This document shows positions 21,521 to 31,169 of a stretch of DNA of 64,000 bases, piece by piece. Each line of letters opens with the position of its first letter. Positions within the stretch are counted from its first letter, which is position 1. The position numbers and the translations under genes were made by a program. Source of the DNA: Chloroflexota bacterium. GTDB lineage: Bacteria; Chloroflexota; Anaerolineae; DTLA01. The notes under the pieces were generated by a model. The model saw nothing but the letters and a program-made list of their open reading frames with translations, searched no databases and was not told the origin of the DNA. The stretch lies in NCBI GenBank assembly GCA_014874485.1, contig JADBJK010000017.1:1-64000 (forward strand). Reading direction: 5' to 3'.

Positions 21521-21549
21521 TTGACGCGGCGCGCGCCTGTTTCTACAAT
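21521..21549 (+). promoter_or_regulatory. Promoter of the membrane-propeller fusion gene
   Basis: TTGACG (21521-21526) and TACAAT (21544-21549) are 17 nt apart, back to back with the minus-strand promoter at 21477-21504. The -10 box covers the ATG at 21548, which supports using the later ATG at 21575. Confidence 0.7.
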
Positions 21550-21574
21550 GTCTGTGGAACCGAGGAGCGAGCCG

Positions 21575-23689
21575 ATGACGGGAACCCCACGCGTGTCTCC
21601 ATTCTCCCGCCGCTGGTGGACGCGGCGCCGCGTCGTGGTCGCCGTGGTGGTCGTGGCGGCGCTGCTCCGGCTTTGGGCCGCGTGGCAACTGCCGGTGGAC
21701 TACGACGAGCCGGTGTACATCAAGGCGGCCTTTGACTACGCCGAGGCCATGCGCGCGGGCGACTGGAATGCCGTCATAGACTACGCGGGCAACCGCGAGC
21801 ACCCGCCGCTGGTGAAACTGCTGTACGGCGCGGGTGTGCTGGCGCTGGGCGACGCGGCCACGTGGGACAGCGCACTGATGGCGGGGCGGCTCATCTCGGC
21901 GGCGTTCGGGACGCTGGCCGTGCTCCTGCTGGCGCTGGCCGACCCGCTGGCGGGCGCGATGCTGGCGGTGCACACGCTGGCGGTCAAGTACACCGGCCAG
22001 GCGTACCTGGAGGCGCTGCCGCTGTTCGCGTGCATCGCGGCGGTGCTGGCACTGCGCCGCTCGGTGGGGCGCGACCGGTGGCTGTACCTGTCGGCGGCAG
22101 CGCTGGGCCTGGCGCTGGCGGGCAAACTGTCGTACCTGCCCATCCTGTTCGCCGTTGGGTACATCGCGCTGTGGGAAAGGCCCGCGCGCCGCTGGGATAT
22201 GGTCCCGTACCTGGCGCTGGCCGCTGCGGTGTTCCTGTTGCTGAACCCGACGCTGTGGCACGAGCCCCTGCCCCGCCTGGCCGAGACCCTCACCTTCCAC
22301 TCGCAGTACTCGCGCAGCGCCCACGTCCAGCAAATCGGGTATCCCTGGTTCCAGCCCATCCTGTGGGTGGCGTTCTCGGTTCCCTGGCATCCGGAGGTGT
22401 TCTTCTACGGCGGGTTTGATGGCCTCATCTTCCTGCTGGCGGTGGGCGGGGCATGGTGGCAGTGGCGCGAGCGGCGATGGGCCGTGGTGTGGGCGGGCAC
22501 ATCCATGCTGGCGCTCCTCGCGTGGCCCACCAAGTGGCCGCAGTACGCGCTCATCGTGGTGCCCGCGCTGTGCCTGATGGCGGCGGGGACGGCCCGGCGC
22601 GCGTACCGCTGGGTCGCCGAGCAGGAAGCCTACTGGGAGTGGCTGCGGGAGATGGTGCCCAAGCCGCCGAGGGCCTTCTGGGTCGGCCTGGGGCTAATCG
22701 CGCTGGCCTTTGTCGGCCTCTACGTGGCGGCTGGGGTTCAGGTGGCGCTGGAGCAGCGGCACTGGACGCACCTCACCGCGGCGAACACACCCCTGCCGTC
22801 CAACACGGTTCGGGGCATCGCCGCCGCGCCGGATGGACGGATGGCGCTGGCGACAGGCGCGGGCGCGGCCATCTGGTCGCCATCGGCTGCGGGCGGGCCA
22901 GAATCCTGGCAGGTGTTTACCCGCGCCAACTCGGACCTGCCCAGCGACGACGTGCTGGCAGTCGCCGCCGACCCATCGGGCGGCCTCTGGTTCGGGACGG
23001 GGGCCGGTCTGGCGCGTTACACGGGGGGCCGCTGGCGGGTCTTCCACGCCGCGGAGATGGGCGTGGGCAGCGACCGTGTGCTCGCCATCGCCGTCGGGCC
23101 AGATGGCCGCCTGTGGGCTGGAACCCAGGCGGGCGCAGCAGTCTTTGACGGCACAACCTGGGCGCCGCCCCCGCGGGGGTCCGGGCTTGCCGATGCGCTG
23201 GTGCTCTCCATCGCCGTGGAGCCGGCGGGCCGGGGCGTGTGGTTTGGCACGGGGGACGGAGTCCTGCGGCTGGGCGTGGCCGGCGGTACATGGGAGCGTT
23301 ACACGTCCGAGAACTCGCCGCTCGGCGTCGGCGGCGTGGCGGATGTGCTGGTGGATTCCGCCGGGCGCGTGTGGGCCGCGACGCTGGGCGGGGGCCTGGG
23401 CGTTTGGGATGGCGCCACCTGGCGCGTGTTCAACGTCGCCAACTCCCGCATCCCGTCCAACACGGTGCAGAGTGTCTTTGAGGACCGGGCGGGGACGCTG
23501 TGGGTGGGGTTCTCGTGGCCCACCCAGTTTGGCGGTGCGCTGGCCTCCTTTGACGGGCGGACGTGGAAGGGCTACCCTGCCGGCCGGATTGGCTTTTCGG
23601 GCGCTGAAGCCCTCGCCATCGCGCAGGACGCGATGGGTCGCATCTGGATCGGCACGCAGTCGGCGGGCATCCACATCTACAGCCCGTGA
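21575..23689 (+). CDS. GT-C-type membrane protein fused to seven-repeat propeller
   Basis: The 704-aa protein starts at 21575 after GAGGAG. Residues 1 to about 400 hold around ten membrane segments. The early periplasmic-loop motif LPVDYDEPVYIKAAFDYAE and REHPPLVKLLYG look like GT39/ArnT-type dolichyl- or undecaprenyl-phosphate glycosyltransferases, with the DxDE acid pair as the likely catalytic site. Residues about 425-704 hold seven repeats of the two-component-regulator propeller type (for example GRLWAGTQAGAAVFDGTTW, GTLWVGFS and GRIWIGTQSAGIHIYSP), enough for a closed seven-bladed outer domain. The fusion is unusual; the propeller may bind a glycan acceptor or act as a sensor. Confidence 0.75.
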   Translation: MTGTPRVSPFSRRWWTRRRVVVAVVVVAALLRLWAAWQLPVDYDEPVYIKAAFDYAEAMRAGDWNAVIDYAGNREHPPLVKLLYGAGVLALGDAATWDSALMAGRLISAAFGTLAVLLLALADPLAGAMLAVHTLAVKYTGQAYLEALPLFACIAAVLALRRSVGRDRWLYLSAAALGLALAGKLSYLPILFAVGYIALWERPARRWDMVPYLALAAAVFLLLNPTLWHEPLPRLAETLTFHSQYSRSAHVQQIGYPWFQPILWVAFSVPWHPEVFFYGGFDGLIFLLAVGGAWWQWRERRWAVVWAGTSMLALLAWPTKWPQYALIVVPALCLMAAGTARRAYRWVAEQEAYWEWLREMVPKPPRAFWVGLGLIALAFVGLYVAAGVQVALEQRHWTHLTAANTPLPSNTVRGIAAAPDGRMALATGAGAAIWSPSAAGGPESWQVFTRANSDLPSDDVLAVAADPSGGLWFGTGAGLARYTGGRWRVFHAAEMGVGSDRVLAIAVGPDGRLWAGTQAGAAVFDGTTWAPPPRGSGLADALVLSIAVEPAGRGVWFGTGDGVLRLGVAGGTWERYTSENSPLGVGGVADVLVDSAGRVWAATLGGGLGVWDGATWRVFNVANSRIPSNTVQSVFEDRAGTLWVGFSWPTQFGGALASFDGRTWKGYPAGRIGFSGAEALAIAQDAMGRIWIGTQSAGIHIYSP

Positions 23690-23870
23690 GGGCGCGGGAC
23701 CTGCCGGTGGGTCGTGGGGGCAGGGCGAAGGTGGGGCGAAATCGCTCATCGCGCACGGTTCTCGGCGGTCGGGTGGGGCGTTGAGCCACTGTGTGGGTCG
23801 CTCGGTGGGGGAAGATGGGGGCTTGGGGCCTGCCTTCGGCACTCGCATCGGACACGGGACACCGCCCGCG

Positions 23871-23899
23871 TTGACAGATTACGCGGATTGTGATATAGT
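23871..23899 (+). promoter_or_regulatory. Promoter of the BMP transporter operon
   Basis: TTGACA (23871-23876) and TATAGT (23894-23899) are 17 nt apart, giving a leader of about 190 nt. The rest of the 405-nt gap from 23690 holds nothing else I can name. Confidence 0.75.
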
Positions 23900-23998
23900 G
23901 AACGCGGCTCCACCAAGTTGGCAATCGGCTCTACCTCAACAAACGCCTGATACAGCGACGTGCCCACACGACGACGTGCCATACACAGCGGTTGGGAT

Positions 23999-24011
23999 AG
24001 GAGGTGATGTG
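23999..24011 (+). promoter_or_regulatory. Extra anti-SD-complementary site upstream of BMP gene
   Basis: AGGAGGTGATGTG is a complete complement to the 16S rRNA 3' end. It lies about 95 nt before the real start at 24095, which has its own AGGAGGAG. The only frame it could serve is five codons (ATG 24007 to TGA 24022-24024). It mirrors GGAGGTGGTGTG before livK. Confidence 0.45.
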
Positions 24012-24094
24012 TAGAGGCAACTGACGTCTTTCGGGTCCCCGGTTTGGAGTCCGTATCCTCACCCACAGTTTTGCGAATGGCTAGGAGGAGAAAC

Positions 24095-27000
24095 ATGATT
24101 CGCAACAAGCGTATTCTGTCAATGGTTGGCCTGCTGTTGATGCTCTCCCTGGTGCTCGCAGCGTGTGGCCCCAAGGCTACGCCTACCCCCACACCCACCA
24201 AGCCGCCTGCCACCACCGTTCCACCCAAGGCTGTCAAGGCGGCTTTTGTGTACGTAGCGCCCATTGGGGACCTGGGGTGGACGTGGGCGCACGACCAGGG
24301 TCGGCAGATGGTGGAGAAGGAGCTGGGCATAGAGACGGCGTACATAGAGAACGTGCCCGAGGGTCCCGATGCGGAGCGGGTGATTCGGGACTTTGCGCAG
24401 AAGGGGTACGACATCATTTTCACGACGAGTTTCGGGTTCATGGATCCGACGCTGACGGTGGCGCAGGAGTTTCCGGACAAGTACTTTGAGCACTGCTCGG
24501 GGTACAAGACGGCTGCGAACATGAGCACGTACTTTGGGCGGATGTACCAGCCGCGGTTCCTGTCGGGTCTTGTGGCGGGGAAGGCGACGAAGACCAACAA
24601 GATAGGGTACGTGGCGGCGTATCCGATACCGGAGGTGATTCGCGGGATCAACGCGTTCACGTTGGGCGTTCGGACGGTGAACCCGAAGGCGACGGTGCAC
24701 GTGGTATGGACGAACACGTGGTTTGACCCGGTGAAGGAGAAGGACGCGGCGGTGGCGTTGCTGGATGCGGGGTGCGACGTGATAGCCCAGCACCAGGACA
24801 CGACGGAGCCGCAGAAGGCTGCTGCCGAGCGAGGTGCGGTGAGCATTGGGTACGACTCGGACATGCGGGCCTTCGTTGGCGATACCGTCCTCACCTCGCC
24901 GGTCTGGAACTGGGGGCCGTACTACGTGAGCCGTGTGAAGGCGGTGATGGAAGGGACGTGGAAGAGCCAGCAGTACTGGGGGAGCATGAAGGACGGGGTT
25001 GTAGGGCTTGCGCCGTTCAGCCCGAAGGTGCCTGCGGATGTGGTGGCGCTGGTGGAGGAGTGGAAGAAGAAGATTCTGAGCGGTGAATGGGATGTCTTCA
25101 CCGGCCCCATCAACGGCCAGGATGGGAAACTCGCCATCGCCAAGGGTCAGAAGATGACCGACCCCGAGATGCTCTCCATGGACTGGTTCGTGGAGGGTGT
25201 CGTGGGCGAGGCGCCCGGCAAGCCGCCTGTGGCTCAGGTTACCACCAAACCGGTCAAGGCGGCTTTTGTGTACGTAGCGCCCATTGGGGACCTGGGGTGG
25301 ACGTGGGCGCACGACCAGGGTCGGCAGATGGTGGAGAAGGAGCTGGGCATAGAGACGGCGTACATAGAGAACGTGCCCGAGGGTCCCGATGCGGAGCGGG
25401 TGATTCGGGACTTTGCGCAGAAGGGGTACGACATCATTTTCACGACGAGTTTCGGGTTCATGGATCCGACGCTGACGGTGGCGCAGGAGTTTCCGGACAA
25501 GTACTTTGAGCACTGCTCGGGGTACAAGACGGCTGCGAACATGAGCACGTACTTTGGGCGGATGTACCAGCCGCGGTTCCTGTCGGGTCTTGTGGCGGGG
25601 AAGGCGACGAAGACCAACAAGATAGGGTACGTGGCGGCGTATCCGATACCGGAGGTGATTCGCGGGATCAACGCGTTCACGTTGGGCGTTCGGACGGTGA
25701 ACCCGAAGGCGACGGTGCACGTGGTATGGACGAACACGTGGTTTGACCCGGTGAAGGAGAAGGACGCGGCGGTGGCGTTGCTGGATGCGGGGTGCGACGT
25801 GATAGCCCAGCACCAGGACACGACGGAGCCGCAGAAGGCTGCTGCCGAGCGAGGTGCGGTGAGCATTGGGTACGACTCGGACATGCGGGCCTTCGTTGGC
25901 GATACCGTCCTCACCTCGCCGGTCTGGAACTGGGGGCCGTACTACGTGAGCCGTGTGAAGGCGGTGATGGAAGGGACGTGGAAGAGCCAGCAGTACTGGG
26001 GGAGCATGAAGGACGGGGTTGTAGGGCTTGCGCCGTTCAGCCCGAAGGTGCCTGCGGATGTGGCGGCGTTGGTGGAGGAGTGGAAGAAGAAGATTCTGAG
26101 CGGCGAATGGGATGTCTTCACCGGCCCCATCAACGGCCAGGACGGGAAACTCGCCATCCTCCACGGCGAGCGCATGACGGACGAGCAGATGCTGTCCATG
26201 GACTGGTTCGTGGAGGGCGTCGTGGGTGAGGCTCCGGGCAAGGCCCCCGTCGCCACGCTCCCGCCCAAGCTGAAGGTTGCCTTCGTGTACGTCGGCCCGC
26301 AGATGGACCTGGGCTGGTCCTACGCCCATGACCAGGGCCGCCAGTACCTGGAGAAGAACGTCCCCAACGTGGAGACCGCCTTCAGCGAACTGGTGAGCGA
26401 AGGGCCGGATTCCACCCGCATCATCCGCGACTACGCCCAGAAGGGGTACGACCTCATCTTCGCCACTTCGTTCGGCTACATGGATTCAGTGATAGAGGTG
26501 GCGCAGGAGTTCCCGAAGGTCGTCTTTGAGCACTGCACCGGCTACAAGACGGCGGCCAACGTGGGCACCTACGACGGGCGCGGCTACCAGGGCTGGTACC
26601 TGGCGGGCATGGTGGCGGGGAAGATGACCAAGAACAACAAACTCGGCTACATCGCGCCCTACCCCATCCCCGAAGTCGTGCGCAACATGAACGCCTTCAC
26701 GCTGGGCGCGCGGTCGGTGAACCCGAAGGTAACGGTCAAGCCGGTGTGGATCTTCACCTGGGTTGATCCCGTGAAGGAGCGCGAGGCGGCGACCGCCCTG
26801 GCCGACGCCGGCTGCGATGTCATCGCCCGCGAGAGCGACTCCACCGAGGCCGACAAACTGGCCCAGGAGCGCGGCCTCTACGCCGTCGGCTACAACACCT
26901 ACCTGCCCGACGTGGCCCCCAAGGCCCTGCTCACCGCTCCCATCTGGAACTGGGGCATCCTGTACAAGAAGATCGCCGAGGATGTCCGCAACGGGACGTG

Positions 27001-27262
27001 GAAGAGCGAGGCCATCTGGTGGGGCATGAAAGAGGGCCTGCTGACGATGGCCCCCTACGGCTCCATGGTGCCCGACGACGTGAAGGCGCTGGTGGAGGCC
27101 AAGAAGGCCGAGATCATCGCGGGCAAGTTTGACGTCTTCGTGGGCCCCATCAAGGATAACACGGGCAAGGAGCGCGTCGCGGCGGGCGTTACCATGACGG
27201 ACCCCGAGAAACTCTCGTTTGACTGGCTGGTTGAGGGAGTGGAAGGCACCATCCCGAAATAG
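24095..27262 (+). CDS. Triple-domain BMP-family binding lipoprotein
   Basis: The 1055-aa lipoprotein has the lipobox LAAC at Cys24 and a short Thr/Pro tether. Three tandem BMP/PnrA-type binding domains start at about residues 47, 387 and 726. BMP proteins bind purine nucleosides and similar ligands for ABC import. Each domain has the sequence order AFVYV-GDLGWTWAHDQGRQ, EGPDAERVIRDFAQKGYD and EHCSGYKTAANM or a close variant. Domains 1 and 2 are identical over most of their length; domain 3 is clearly diverged. BMP receptors are normally single-domain, about 330-380 aa. The ATPase and two permeases follow. Confidence 0.9.
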   Translation: MIRNKRILSMVGLLLMLSLVLAACGPKATPTPTPTKPPATTVPPKAVKAAFVYVAPIGDLGWTWAHDQGRQMVEKELGIETAYIENVPEGPDAERVIRDFAQKGYDIIFTTSFGFMDPTLTVAQEFPDKYFEHCSGYKTAANMSTYFGRMYQPRFLSGLVAGKATKTNKIGYVAAYPIPEVIRGINAFTLGVRTVNPKATVHVVWTNTWFDPVKEKDAAVALLDAGCDVIAQHQDTTEPQKAAAERGAVSIGYDSDMRAFVGDTVLTSPVWNWGPYYVSRVKAVMEGTWKSQQYWGSMKDGVVGLAPFSPKVPADVVALVEEWKKKILSGEWDVFTGPINGQDGKLAIAKGQKMTDPEMLSMDWFVEGVVGEAPGKPPVAQVTTKPVKAAFVYVAPIGDLGWTWAHDQGRQMVEKELGIETAYIENVPEGPDAERVIRDFAQKGYDIIFTTSFGFMDPTLTVAQEFPDKYFEHCSGYKTAANMSTYFGRMYQPRFLSGLVAGKATKTNKIGYVAAYPIPEVIRGINAFTLGVRTVNPKATVHVVWTNTWFDPVKEKDAAVALLDAGCDVIAQHQDTTEPQKAAAERGAVSIGYDSDMRAFVGDTVLTSPVWNWGPYYVSRVKAVMEGTWKSQQYWGSMKDGVVGLAPFSPKVPADVAALVEEWKKKILSGEWDVFTGPINGQDGKLAILHGERMTDEQMLSMDWFVEGVVGEAPGKAPVATLPPKLKVAFVYVGPQMDLGWSYAHDQGRQYLEKNVPNVETAFSELVSEGPDSTRIIRDYAQKGYDLIFATSFGYMDSVIEVAQEFPKVVFEHCTGYKTAANVGTYDGRGYQGWYLAGMVAGKMTKNNKLGYIAPYPIPEVVRNMNAFTLGARSVNPKVTVKPVWIFTWVDPVKEREAATALADAGCDVIARESDSTEADKLAQERGLYAVGYNTYLPDVAPKALLTAPIWNWGILYKKIAEDVRNGTWKSEAIWWGMKEGLLTMAPYGSMVPDDVKALVEAKKAEIIAGKFDVFVGPIKDNTGKERVAAGVTMTDPEKLSFDWLVEGVEGTIPK
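24233..26063 (+). repeat. Two 811-bp identical direct repeats inside the BMP gene
   Basis: Bases 24233-25043 and 25253-26063 are identical at an offset of 1020 bp (340 codons). The first differences are at 25044 and 25049. The linkers that follow differ at many sites, and the third domain differs throughout. Zero synonymous change points to a very recent duplication or gene conversion; an assembly artefact is possible. Confidence 0.9.
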
Positions 27263-27280
27263 GCTCCGTGGATGCGGTAC

Positions 27281-27314
27281 AGAGGTTCTGGCGGGGCGAC
27301 TCGCCAGAACCTCT
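27281..27314. terminator. Hairpin after the BMP gene
   Basis: A perfect 13-bp stem, AGAGGTTCTGGCG (27281-27293) and its complement (27302-27314), has an 8-nt loop. It lies 18 nt after the BMP stop and before the ATPase gene. With no U-run it is more likely to protect the upstream message from 3' decay and so raise BMP protein above the other subunits. The remaining gap to 27539 is empty. Confidence 0.6.
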
Positions 27315-27538
27315 CGCACCAGAAGCCCAGAGCACAGAATAAGAGGCGACTGCACGAATCGCCTCTCAATCGCCACCTACGACGCATTCGCGCTTTCAGT
27401 GGTTCGCAAATACTATGCCATGCAAATTGCCGCTTGTCAAGAGTTTGCGACGGCTGCCCAGTTTCTCGCTGATGCGGTGGGTTCGCATCGTGTAGGCTTG
27501 AACCATCCGTAGGCAGTCATCACTCAAGAGGGAGGACA

Positions 27539-29098
27539 ATGACCGAACACCAACCCACACCCGCCGTCCGCATGATCGGCATCGTCAAGCGCTTCCCGGG
27601 CGTCGTCGCCAACGACCACGTGGATTTTGAGGCGCTGCCGGGCGAGGTGCACAGCCTGCTGGGCGAGAACGGCGCGGGCAAGAGCACCCTCATGAACATC
27701 CTCAGCGGCCTGTACACGCCGGACGAAGGCGAGATTTACCTCTTCGGCCGGCCGGTGGTGCTGCGTTCGCCGCGCGACGCCATCACCCACGGCATCGGCA
27801 TGGTGCATCAGCACTTCATGCTGGTGGAGATGCACACCGTCGCCGAGAACATGGTACTGGGCCTCAACAAGCCGCGCTTCATCCTGAACCTGCGCGAGAT
27901 TGAGCGGGAGGTGGAGCAACTTTCGGCGCAGTACGGCTTGCACGTGGACCCCCGCGCGCGCATCTGGCAACTGTCCGTCGGTGAGCAGCAGCGCGTGGAA
28001 ATCCTCAAGATGCTGTACCGTGGCGCGCGCATCCTCATCCTGGACGAGCCGACGGCGGTGCTCACGCCCCAGGAAGTGGACGACCTGTTCGCCACCTTGC
28101 GCAAGATGACCACCGAGGGCAAGACCATCATCTTCATCAGCCACAAACTGGAGGAGGTGATGGCCATCTCGGACCGCATCACCGTCCTGCGCGGCGGCAA
28201 GGTCGTGGCGACGGTCCGCAAGGCCGAGACGTCGCCCGCGGAACTGGCGAAGATGATGGTCGGGCGCGAAGTGCTGTTCCGCGTGGAGAAGGAGGAGCGG
28301 GAGCCCGGCGAGGTGGTGCTGGAGGTGTCGGGCCTGTGCGCCAACAACGATAAGGGCCTGCCCGCCCTCAAGAACGTGTCGTTCACCATCCGCGAGGGCG
28401 AAATCCTGGGCGTGGCGGGCGTCGCCGGCAACGGCCAGCGCGAACTGGCCGAAGTCCTGACTGGCCTGCGCAAGGCCACCGCCGGCACGGTTACCGTCCT
28501 GGAGTGCGACGTAACCAACTGCTCGCCGCGCAAGATCATCGGGGAGAAGGTGGGGCACGTCCCCGAAGACCGCCTGGGCATGGGCCTCGTGCCCAACCTG
28601 CCGGTGTCCGACAACGTCATCATGAAGACCTACAAGGAGCGCCCCATCTCGGCAGGGCCGTTCCTGAACGGCGGAGCCATCGGGCGGTTCGCGCGGCGGT
28701 TGGTGGAGCAGTTCAACATTGCGACGCCCAGCGTGCAGACGCCGGTGCGTCTGCTTTCGGGTGGCAATCTGCAGAAGACCCTGCTGGCGCGGGAGATTTC
28801 CATCAGCCCCCGCCTGATGATCGCCATGCACCCGACGCGCGGCCTGGATGTGGGGGCCACCGAGGCGGTGCGCCGCCTTCTGCTGGAGCAGCGCAAGCAG
28901 GGCGCCGCGCTCCTGCTCATCAGCGAGGATTTGGACGAACTCCTGGAACTCGCCGACCGAATCCTGGTGCTGTACGAAGGCGAGGTGCAGGGCATCGTGC
29001 CCGCCAAGGACGCCGACGTGGGCGCCATTGGCCTGATGATGGCCGGCGTGAAACCCGGCGCGCCTGCAGCGACCGAGACGGAAAGGAGGCCCGCATGA
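27539..29098 (+). CDS. Nucleoside-type ABC transporter ATPase (double NBD)
   Basis: The 519-aa protein contains two ABC domains in one chain, as in the BMP/nucleoside and ribose importers. The first has Walker A GENGAGKST (residues 42-50) and LSVGEQQRVEILKML. The second has a degenerate Walker A (GVAGNGQRE) and a canonical LLSGGNLQKTLLARE. Such asymmetry is normal for the YufO/RbsA-like group. The start at 27539 follows GGGAGGAC. It overlaps the first permease by 4 nt. Confidence 0.92.
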   Translation: MTEHQPTPAVRMIGIVKRFPGVVANDHVDFEALPGEVHSLLGENGAGKSTLMNILSGLYTPDEGEIYLFGRPVVLRSPRDAITHGIGMVHQHFMLVEMHTVAENMVLGLNKPRFILNLREIEREVEQLSAQYGLHVDPRARIWQLSVGEQQRVEILKMLYRGARILILDEPTAVLTPQEVDDLFATLRKMTTEGKTIIFISHKLEEVMAISDRITVLRGGKVVATVRKAETSPAELAKMMVGREVLFRVEKEEREPGEVVLEVSGLCANNDKGLPALKNVSFTIREGEILGVAGVAGNGQRELAEVLTGLRKATAGTVTVLECDVTNCSPRKIIGEKVGHVPEDRLGMGLVPNLPVSDNVIMKTYKERPISAGPFLNGGAIGRFARRLVEQFNIATPSVQTPVRLLSGGNLQKTLLAREISISPRLMIAMHPTRGLDVGATEAVRRLLLEQRKQGAALLLISEDLDELLELADRILVLYEGEVQGIVPAKDADVGAIGLMMAGVKPGAPAATETERRPA

Positions 29099-30216
29099 GA
29101 ATCCGACTGGAACGCCGTCTCAAGCCTTCCAGGGCTGCCGGTGTGCTGGTGCCCCTCATCTCGCTCATCCTGGCGCTGGCGTTCGGCGGCCTCATCCTGC
29201 TGGCCACGGGCGCGAACCCGATTGTAACGTACAAGGCCATGGCCGTCGGGGCGTTCGGCGGCAAGTACGCCATCTCGGAGACGCTGGTCAAGGCGATTCC
29301 CCTCATCCTGTGCGGGCTGGGCGTGGCGGTGGCCTTCCGCATGCGGTTCTGGAACATCGGCGCGGAGGGGCAACTGGCCATGGGCGGGTTTGCGGCGGCA
29401 TGGGTCGCGCTGTTCCTGCCCGGTCTGCTGCCCAACCTGCCGCTGAAGTGGCTGCTGCCGCTAATGATCTTGGCCGGAATGCTGGCCGGTGCGCTGTGGG
29501 GGCTCATCCCGGCGCTCCTGCGCGCGTTCGTCGGCGTCAACGAAGTCATCACGACGCTGATGATGAATTACATCGCCATCCTGTGGATAGAGTACCTGTT
29601 CTACGGCCCGTGGCGCGACCCGAAGGGGTACGGCTTTCCGGGCACTGCGCCGTTCCCGCAGGAGGGGTGGCTGCCGCGCTATCCGGGGACGCGCGTCCAT
29701 CTGGGCCTGGTCTTTGCCATTGCCGCAGCCATCATCCTGTGGCTTGTGCTCACGCGCACCCGGTGGGGCTACGAGGTGCGGGTAATCGGCGAGAACCCGC
29801 GAGCGGCGCGGTATGCGGGCATTAGCCTGTGGCGCAACTTCCTGCTGGTTATGCTGGTCAGCGGGGCATTGGCGGGGCTGGCCGGCGTGGGCGAGGTGGC
29901 CGGAATCTCGCATCGGCTCCAGAAGGGCCTGACCGTCGGCTATGGCTACACGGCCATCATCGTGGCGTGGATGGGGCAACTGAACCCGTGGGGCGTGGTG
30001 CTGGTAGGGATACTCCTGGCCGGCCTGCTGGTGGGCGGCGACCAGATTCAGATTACGATGCGGCTGCCCGCGGCGGTGGCGCTCGTGCTCCAGGGGGCCA
30101 TTCTGTTCTTCATGCTCGGCGGTGTGCTGTTCAACCAGTACCGCCTGCGCGTGGACTGGGGGCTGCGCAGACGGCCCGTCCGTCCGACATTGCCCGCGGA
30201 GGGAGGCGAATCATGA
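29095..30216 (+). CDS. Nucleoside-type ABC permease (YufP-like)
   Basis: This 373-aa inner-membrane permease of the BPD_transp_2 family has about ten hydrophobic segments. The ATG at 29095 overlaps the ATPase stop and follows AAAGGAGG. FRMRFWNIGAEGQLAMGGFA and FVGVNEVITTLMMNYIAI are typical of the YufP side of BMP importers. It partners the next gene product and the double ATPase. Confidence 0.9.
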   Translation: MRIRLERRLKPSRAAGVLVPLISLILALAFGGLILLATGANPIVTYKAMAVGAFGGKYAISETLVKAIPLILCGLGVAVAFRMRFWNIGAEGQLAMGGFAAAWVALFLPGLLPNLPLKWLLPLMILAGMLAGALWGLIPALLRAFVGVNEVITTLMMNYIAILWIEYLFYGPWRDPKGYGFPGTAPFPQEGWLPRYPGTRVHLGLVFAIAAAIILWLVLTRTRWGYEVRVIGENPRAARYAGISLWRNFLLVMLVSGALAGLAGVGEVAGISHRLQKGLTVGYGYTAIIVAWMGQLNPWGVVLVGILLAGLLVGGDQIQITMRLPAAVALVLQGAILFFMLGGVLFNQYRLRVDWGLRRRPVRPTLPAEGGES

Positions 30217-31169
30217 CTATCGCACTCATCACGTCTATCCTGTGGGTTACCATCCGCGCGGGAACCTCGCTCCTGTACGCCACGGTCGGCGAAATCCTGA
30301 CGGAGCGGGCGGGCATCCTGAACCTGGGCGTGGAGGGAATCATGATCGTGGGCGCGGTTACGGGCTTCGCCGCCGCGTTCCACACCAAGCAGGTCTGGGT
30401 GGGCGTCGGGGTGGCGATGCTGGCGGGCGCGGCCATGGCGTCCATCCACGCCTTCCTGTCGGTGAGCCTGCGCGCCGAGCAGGTGGTGAGCGGTCTCGCG
30501 CTGACCATCTTCGGCACCGGCCTGGCGAACTATCTGGGCCAGCGGCTGGGGCCCAATGGCACGCCGCTCGTGGGCATGGTGGGCCCCAAGTTCACGCCCA
30601 TCTCCCTGTCTGACCTGGCCGAGATTCCGGTGCTGGGCAAGTCGGTCTTCAACCAGGACATCCTCACGTATGCCACATATCTCCTCGTGCCGCTCCTGTG
30701 GTTCTTCCTCAACCGCACGCGGCCCGGCCTGCATCTGCGGGCGGTGGGCGAGAACCCCCAGACCGCCGACGCCATGGGCGTCAACGTGGCGGGCATCCGC
30801 TACCTGTACACCATCGTGGGCGGAATGCTCATCGCCCTGGGTGGCGCGCACCTGTCGCTGGCGTACACGCCCGGCTGGACCGAGGGCCTCACGGCGGGCC
30901 GTGGCTGGATCGCCGTGGCGCTGGTCATCTTCGCCACGTGGGACCCGGTCCGCGCGGTCGTGGGCGCGATCCTGTTCGGCGGCATCAACGCGGTGCAGTT
31001 CCGGATGCAGGCCGCAGGGACCACCATTCCCGCGGCGTTCCTGAACATGTTGCCGTATGCTTTCACCATCGTGGTGCTGGTGCTCATCACGTGGTGGGAG
31101 GGCATCCGCAAGCGGGTGGGCGCGCCTGCCGCGTTGGGCCTGCCCTACGCCCGCGAGGAGAAGCGGTAG
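30213..31169 (+). CDS. Nucleoside-type ABC permease (YufQ-like)
   Basis: This second permease is 318 aa and starts at the ATG at 30213, overlapping the previous stop after GGAGGCG. The N-terminal GEILTERAGILNLGVEGIMI is the signature of the YufQ-type subunit, and SLRAEQVVSGLALTIFGTG follows. Eight to nine membrane segments are visible. It completes the importer, whose substrate is probably a nucleoside or related compound. Confidence 0.9.
   Translation: MTIALITSILWVTIRAGTSLLYATVGEILTERAGILNLGVEGIMIVGAVTGFAAAFHTKQVWVGVGVAMLAGAAMASIHAFLSVSLRAEQVVSGLALTIFGTGLANYLGQRLGPNGTPLVGMVGPKFTPISLSDLAEIPVLGKSVFNQDILTYATYLLVPLLWFFLNRTRPGLHLRAVGENPQTADAMGVNVAGIRYLYTIVGGMLIALGGAHLSLAYTPGWTEGLTAGRGWIAVALVIFATWDPVRAVVGAILFGGINAVQFRMQAAGTTIPAAFLNMLPYAFTIVVLVLITWWEGIRKRVGAPAALGLPYAREEKR

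Follow-up and report, generated by a model that had tools for sequence, protein, structure and literature searches.

Descriptions of type I ABC importers usually assign each of them a single receptor, either soluble or lipid-anchored. Tandem receptor domains are, to our knowledge, found mainly in GlnPQ-like systems, and the GlnPQ domains belong to a binding-protein family other than BMP. According to two reports on GlnPQ (PMC8025302, PMC11331510), its tandem binding domains differ in preference, serve one translocator and can bind simultaneously. Within the BMP family, the nearest solved relatives of the receptor described here, by a wide margin in both sequence and fold searches, are AtzT of Pseudomonas sp. 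ADP and the Brucella protein 3s99, both single-domain members of PF02608 (cluster B-I binding proteins). The affinity of AtzT is 110 nM for guanine and 2.5 uM for adenine, and adenine has been modelled in the site of 3s99 (PMC6834077); a literature search on 3s99 itself found no paper. The BmpD/PnrA receptors have the PF02608 fold in common with our receptor but are single-domain, show 18-23% identity in the fold search and take nucleosides rather than bases as ligands.

The locus considered here lies in a 64,000-nucleotide window (the whole stretch of DNA analysed) from a Chloroflexota bacterium of the class Anaerolineae. Like GlnPQ, it sets several binding domains in tandem beside a single importer set; however, the GlnPQ domains are linked to the permease, whereas this array is a separate lipoprotein of three domains with no permease in the frame. 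It is best read as a three-headed version of a putative purine receptor that is two-headed across the class and, by analogy, as working like the GlnPQ tandem domains without belonging to the GlnPQ family. We think it likely that the locus encodes a tethered purine-base receptor, with two domains of type A followed by one of type B, that is made alongside a single ABC importer of the BMP type.

The receptor gene is a single complete open frame, with its ATG at 24095 and a stop codon ending at 27262, preceded by a ribosome-binding site (AGGAGGAG) at 24083-24090 (Table 1). Three full PF02608 stretches lie within it and total 643 bits in a Pfam profile search, which passes the gathering cut-off of 24.1. 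A preliminary description had proposed three tandem BMP domains on one lipid anchor feeding one importer; its coordinates were exact, and the arrangement is borne out by the three stretches in one frame, the lipobox LAAC, and the single ABC ATPase and two BPD_transp_2-type permeases downstream. The AlphaFold model contains three confident globular domains, with low confidence at the A1-A2 linker and at residues 23-42 in the tether region; given the low linker confidence and a pTM of 0.47, no fixed arrangement of the three heads is predicted. The gene upstream (21521-23689) joins a mannosyltransferase-like membrane part (a weak match) to a propeller of the two-component-regulator type.

Table 1. 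Positions in the window of the receptor gene, its parts and the neighbouring importer genes.
Feature	Positions	Strand	Basis
Promoter-like site, TTGACA-17-TATAGT	23871-23899	+	Consensus scan, 11/12 matches; pattern match only
Three-domain BMP lipoprotein gene (A1-A2-B), 1055 aa	24095-27262	+	Open frame, Pfam
Signal peptide, lipobox LAAC, Thr/Pro-rich tether	24095-24232	+	Read from sequence; same leader in congeners
Domain A1 (BMP, AtzT-like, pocket WSFEGWHD)	24233-25213	+	Pfam, pocket alignment
A1-A2 linker, unique sequence	25214-25252	+	Repeat comparison, structure model
Domain A2, sharing 811 identical bp with A1	25253-26233	+	Repeat comparison, pocket alignment
A2-B linker	26234-26272	+	Repeat comparison
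Domain B (BMP, AtzT-like, pocket WSFENWED)	26273-27259	+	Pfam, similarity search, pocket alignment
Strong hairpin in the gap between receptor and importer genes, 15-bp	27281-27314	+	Folding against shuffles; relatives compared
ABC ATPase, two nucleotide-binding halves	27539-29098	+	Gene calls, locus comparison, NCBIfam
Permease 1 (BPD_transp_2 type)	29095-30216	+	Locus comparison, NCBIfam
Permease 2 (BPD_transp_2 type)	30213-31169	+	Locus comparison, NCBIfam

The three-domain repeat is far beyond chance. With a period of 1020 bp, positions 24233-25043 recur exactly at 25253-26063 (811 bp), and beyond this identity A1 and A2 have four more differences, between 25044 and 25138; the two domains are 97.9% identical in protein, and domain B shares ~64% of its DNA and 58% of its protein sequence with either. 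Because the assembly is fragmented (122 contigs), an exact tandem repeat longer than short reads deserves suspicion, and both congeners carry only two domains, so that the second A copy might have been made by the assembler. We regard such an artefact as highly improbable: the end of A1, the linker and the start of A2 (about 25044-25252) form a unique junction, unlike that between A2 and B, which a single A-B gene cannot yield, the copies are set apart by four substitutions and two linkers, and G083, an independent genome from a different family, has the A-A-B order with its own linker sequence. Reasonable doubt attaches instead to whether more than two A copies exist, as an assembly loop may be traversed more often and the A copy number could still err upwards.

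It had been supposed that BMP receptors are normally single and that multi-domain forms are very unusual. The first premise is right outside the phylum, where 1 of 45 control genomes (G413) carries a multi-BMP frame, and wrong inside the class, where a search of relatives gave at least 30 frames with more than one BMP domain, spread over at least 26 of 100 genomes (Fisher p = 0.0004, for controls chosen because they carry the closest single-domain relatives and not at random); the second fails for the class on the same count. What is rare is the A-A-B order and not the multi-BMP receptor as such. The usual form in the class is an A-B lipoprotein (e.g. L027, L037, L046), which has the orthologous gene, the operon, and the A and B pockets of the window but one A only, and the A-A-B order occurs in 2 of about 25 genomes having the fused gene, among 396 class genomes. 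The second case, locus L031 of G083, comes from an unrelated family, has linkers of its own and contains A copies that are 99.8% identical in DNA; the two A-A-B genes arose separately. A literature search for multi-receptor lipoproteins in Chloroflexi, among open-licence full texts, returned nothing relevant.

Both congeners of the window genome (G001 and G002) carry A-B, and in trees A1 and A2 of the window are sisters next to the A of G001, a pattern best explained if the third head is a recent tandem copy of domain A in the window lineage. In G002 the B domain and the importer genes are 94-98% identical to those of the window, in DNA or protein, whereas the A domain has 73% protein identity to the window A and groups elsewhere in the tree; the A position was thus probably exchanged in the G002 lineage. 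This divergent A lies at locus L026 (G002:C12:3105-4100). Because A1 and A2 are nearly identical, the third head may contribute no more than dosage, if anything, and the extra A could then be a transient product of recombination without a role. Near-identical tandem BMP domains do recur among genomes of the class (L031, L034, L048, L049 and L070; DNA identity 98.8-100%), looking as if copies come and go, and G002, in which a different A stands next to a nearly identical B, marks the A position as mobile. However, the frame and all pocket residues are intact in both window copies, and A-A-B arose at least twice independently and in the same order. Neutral copy-number variation is on this evidence unlikely, and it is plausible that the third head raises capture capacity.

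The pockets were compared by mapping the guanine pocket of AtzT (PMC6834077) onto the domain alignment. All 27 B domains have the fingerprint W,S,F,E,N,W,E,D, while 88 of the 103 non-B domains have the A fingerprint W,S,F,E,G,W,H,D and most of the rest depart from it by one change. Since the two fingerprints are conserved and differ from each other at the counterparts of AtzT Asn169 and Asn218, the array carries two different conserved pockets, and the split of specificity suggested earlier, with domains 1-2 set against domain 3, is likely. In a quick tree of 91 domains, built without bootstraps and with L038, L131 and L097 left out, the B domains, which take the last position, group in a single clade (100% support) that is confined to Chloroflexota or unnamed bins, and the A domains are scattered among single-domain proteins from many phyla; the monophyly of A and B was not judged from a first tree, which contained the long-branch rows L038, L080 and L081. 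The best explanation is that A and B are old paralogues that would have been fused long ago in the class. In the Caldilineae A and B are encoded by separate neighbouring genes (L094, L095, L096, L098 and L112), which suggests that the domains also work unfused. These split genes nest among the fused ones, which makes fission of a fused gene no less likely than independent fusion, and the tree does not firmly polarise the fusion order.

Two other fusion types were seen in passing. One has a divergent BMP domain (pocket WSFEHWGD) ahead of an A-type domain (L038:6411-8738, and L131/L209); in the other (L202:366-2438 and L097) an A-type domain comes first and a distant BMP domain second, and the A domain is interrupted by one stop codon close to its beginning.

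There is reason to think that the ligands are purine bases. AtzT (6pi5/6pi6; target-normalised TM 0.94, Foldseek) and 3s99 are the best matches in structure as well as sequence (TM 0.93-0.94 and about 50% identity for the pair), and domain B aligns to 6pi5 with full-length similarity (E 3e-96). The aromatic sandwich and the Ser-Phe-Glu of the purine pocket are common to all of them: among the purine-contact residues of AtzT, Ser97, Phe98, Glu165 and Trp194 are kept and Trp replaces Tyr45. The residues at Asn169, Asn218 and Asn220 differ, and because Asn218/Asn220 become His/Asp in A and Glu/Asp in B the exact ligand is not readable from sequence. At the seven positions that the alignment covers (S, F, E, G, W, H, D), the A fingerprint is that of 3s99. 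Sequence and fold thus point to purine bases, with A probably binding adenine or a similar purine and B another purine. An adenine deaminase gene (PF13382) is the direct neighbour of the receptor gene in nine different related genomes (L031, L040, L041, L044, L050, L051, L052, L091 and L097), including the other A-A-B genome, and also lies near a single-domain BMP gene of a spirochaete (L105). The window operon has no adjoining purine gene, and the adenine deaminase of the same genome is on another contig.

It might be expected from the NCBIfam results that the system serves pyridoxine (B6), as the best models for the receptor, the ATPase and both permeases are those of a putative B6 transporter, and other solved BMP proteins bind nucleosides or riboflavin, so that a nucleoside or another aromatic heterocycle could also be considered. 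The B6 models score well under their cut-offs (196/400 for the receptor; 497/670, 201/400 and 193/465 for the importer proteins), the aromatic pair and the Ser-Phe-Glu of the pocket match purine-base binders, and the adenine deaminase neighbourhood of relatives argues against a non-purine ligand; a ligand outside the purine bases seems distinctly unlikely. Membership in the putative B6 ABC transporter family was rejected, no protein reaching the curated equivalog cut-off of NCBIfam.

Nearly all related loci have one ATPase-permease-permease set downstream of the receptor. The hairpin between the receptor and importer genes folds, with its flanks, at -37.1 kcal/mol (z -5.96; none of 200 shuffles was equally stable), and a comparably strong hairpin of unrelated sequence occupies the same position in most of the 20 loci examined, those of L041 and L045 being weaker. 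Hairpins in binding-protein operons raise the level of the receptor above that of the importer, and a hairpin after the receptor stop codon is consistent with more receptor than importer being made here. An Rfam search of 23690-27560 found no riboswitch, and the 5' leader (23900-24049) folds more weakly than its own shuffles. In the mechanism that we favour, the three purine-base-binding domains of the lipid-anchored receptor, in the order A-A-B, would be made together with the ATPase and the two permeases, and each would bind ligand alone on its flexible tether. A1, A2 and B would take turns at docking on the one permease pair, so that the anchor could hold a high local concentration of loaded receptors while two ligand preferences share one importer.

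The A copies also carry a strong shift at synonymous sites. Window A and G001 A have 93% protein identity, yet 71% of their four-fold sites differ, near the saturation value of 75%; B differs at 26% of such sites and a second operon at 18-28%. Four-fold composition is G 0.68 and C 0.19 in the window A copies, as against G 0.38 and C 0.57 in B of the same gene, and the shift runs from C to G, with ATC to ATA/ATT, and not from C to T. Among 112 distinct non-B domains compared, it is confined to the two triples (the window and L031) and a split gene of G209 that is spread over two contigs (L204/L216). The shift would be explained if the A module had been imported from a donor of other codon preference; no such donor was found in the 396 class genomes. 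A C-to-G shift as a general mark of recent tandem duplicates was rejected, as L048, L070 and L034 are C-rich. Duplication of A driven by an R-loop or G-quadruplex was considered as well: GC skew is +0.26 in A1 and +0.02 in B, and there are no G4 motifs.

Receptor fusions extend beyond BMP pairs. In the window genome, a 659-aa frame (L029:6067-8043; G000:C80:48066-50042) joins PhnD (PF12974) to BMP ahead of a BMP-type ATPase and two permeases; it is present in all three genomes of the genus (L028 and L030 in the congeners) and, being 96-97% identical across them, is real. Further combinations in the class are BMP-SBP_bac_5, BMP-BMP-SBP_bac_8, SBP_bac_8-BMP-BMP, BMP-BMP-PhnD, BMP-SBP_bac_3-PhnD and BMP-Peripla_BP_6 (heterotypic loci L032, L033, L034, L035, L059, L063, L064, L066 and L121), and a search of open-licence full texts found none reporting class-wide fusions of BMP with receptors of unrelated fold. 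Considering the duplication of A in two lineages, its exchange in G002 and these heterotypic joins, we tentatively suggest, though the odds are somewhat against it, that Anaerolineae arrays may represent a general strategy in which recombination alters how many heads, and of which like or unrelated folds, are carried on one lipid anchor, giving one importer tunable multi-ligand capture. The natural one-, two- and three-headed forms of one gene offer a comparative series for the effects of tethering and head number on uptake rate, affinity and competition, and the heterotypic fusions raise the question of whether, and if so how, unrelated folds share one permease pair. In seven loci of the class BMP is fused directly to a BPD_transp_2-type permease (L058, by Pfam; L061, L062, L067, L068, L069 and L073, by similarity to the window permease), which is a GlnPQ-like layout.
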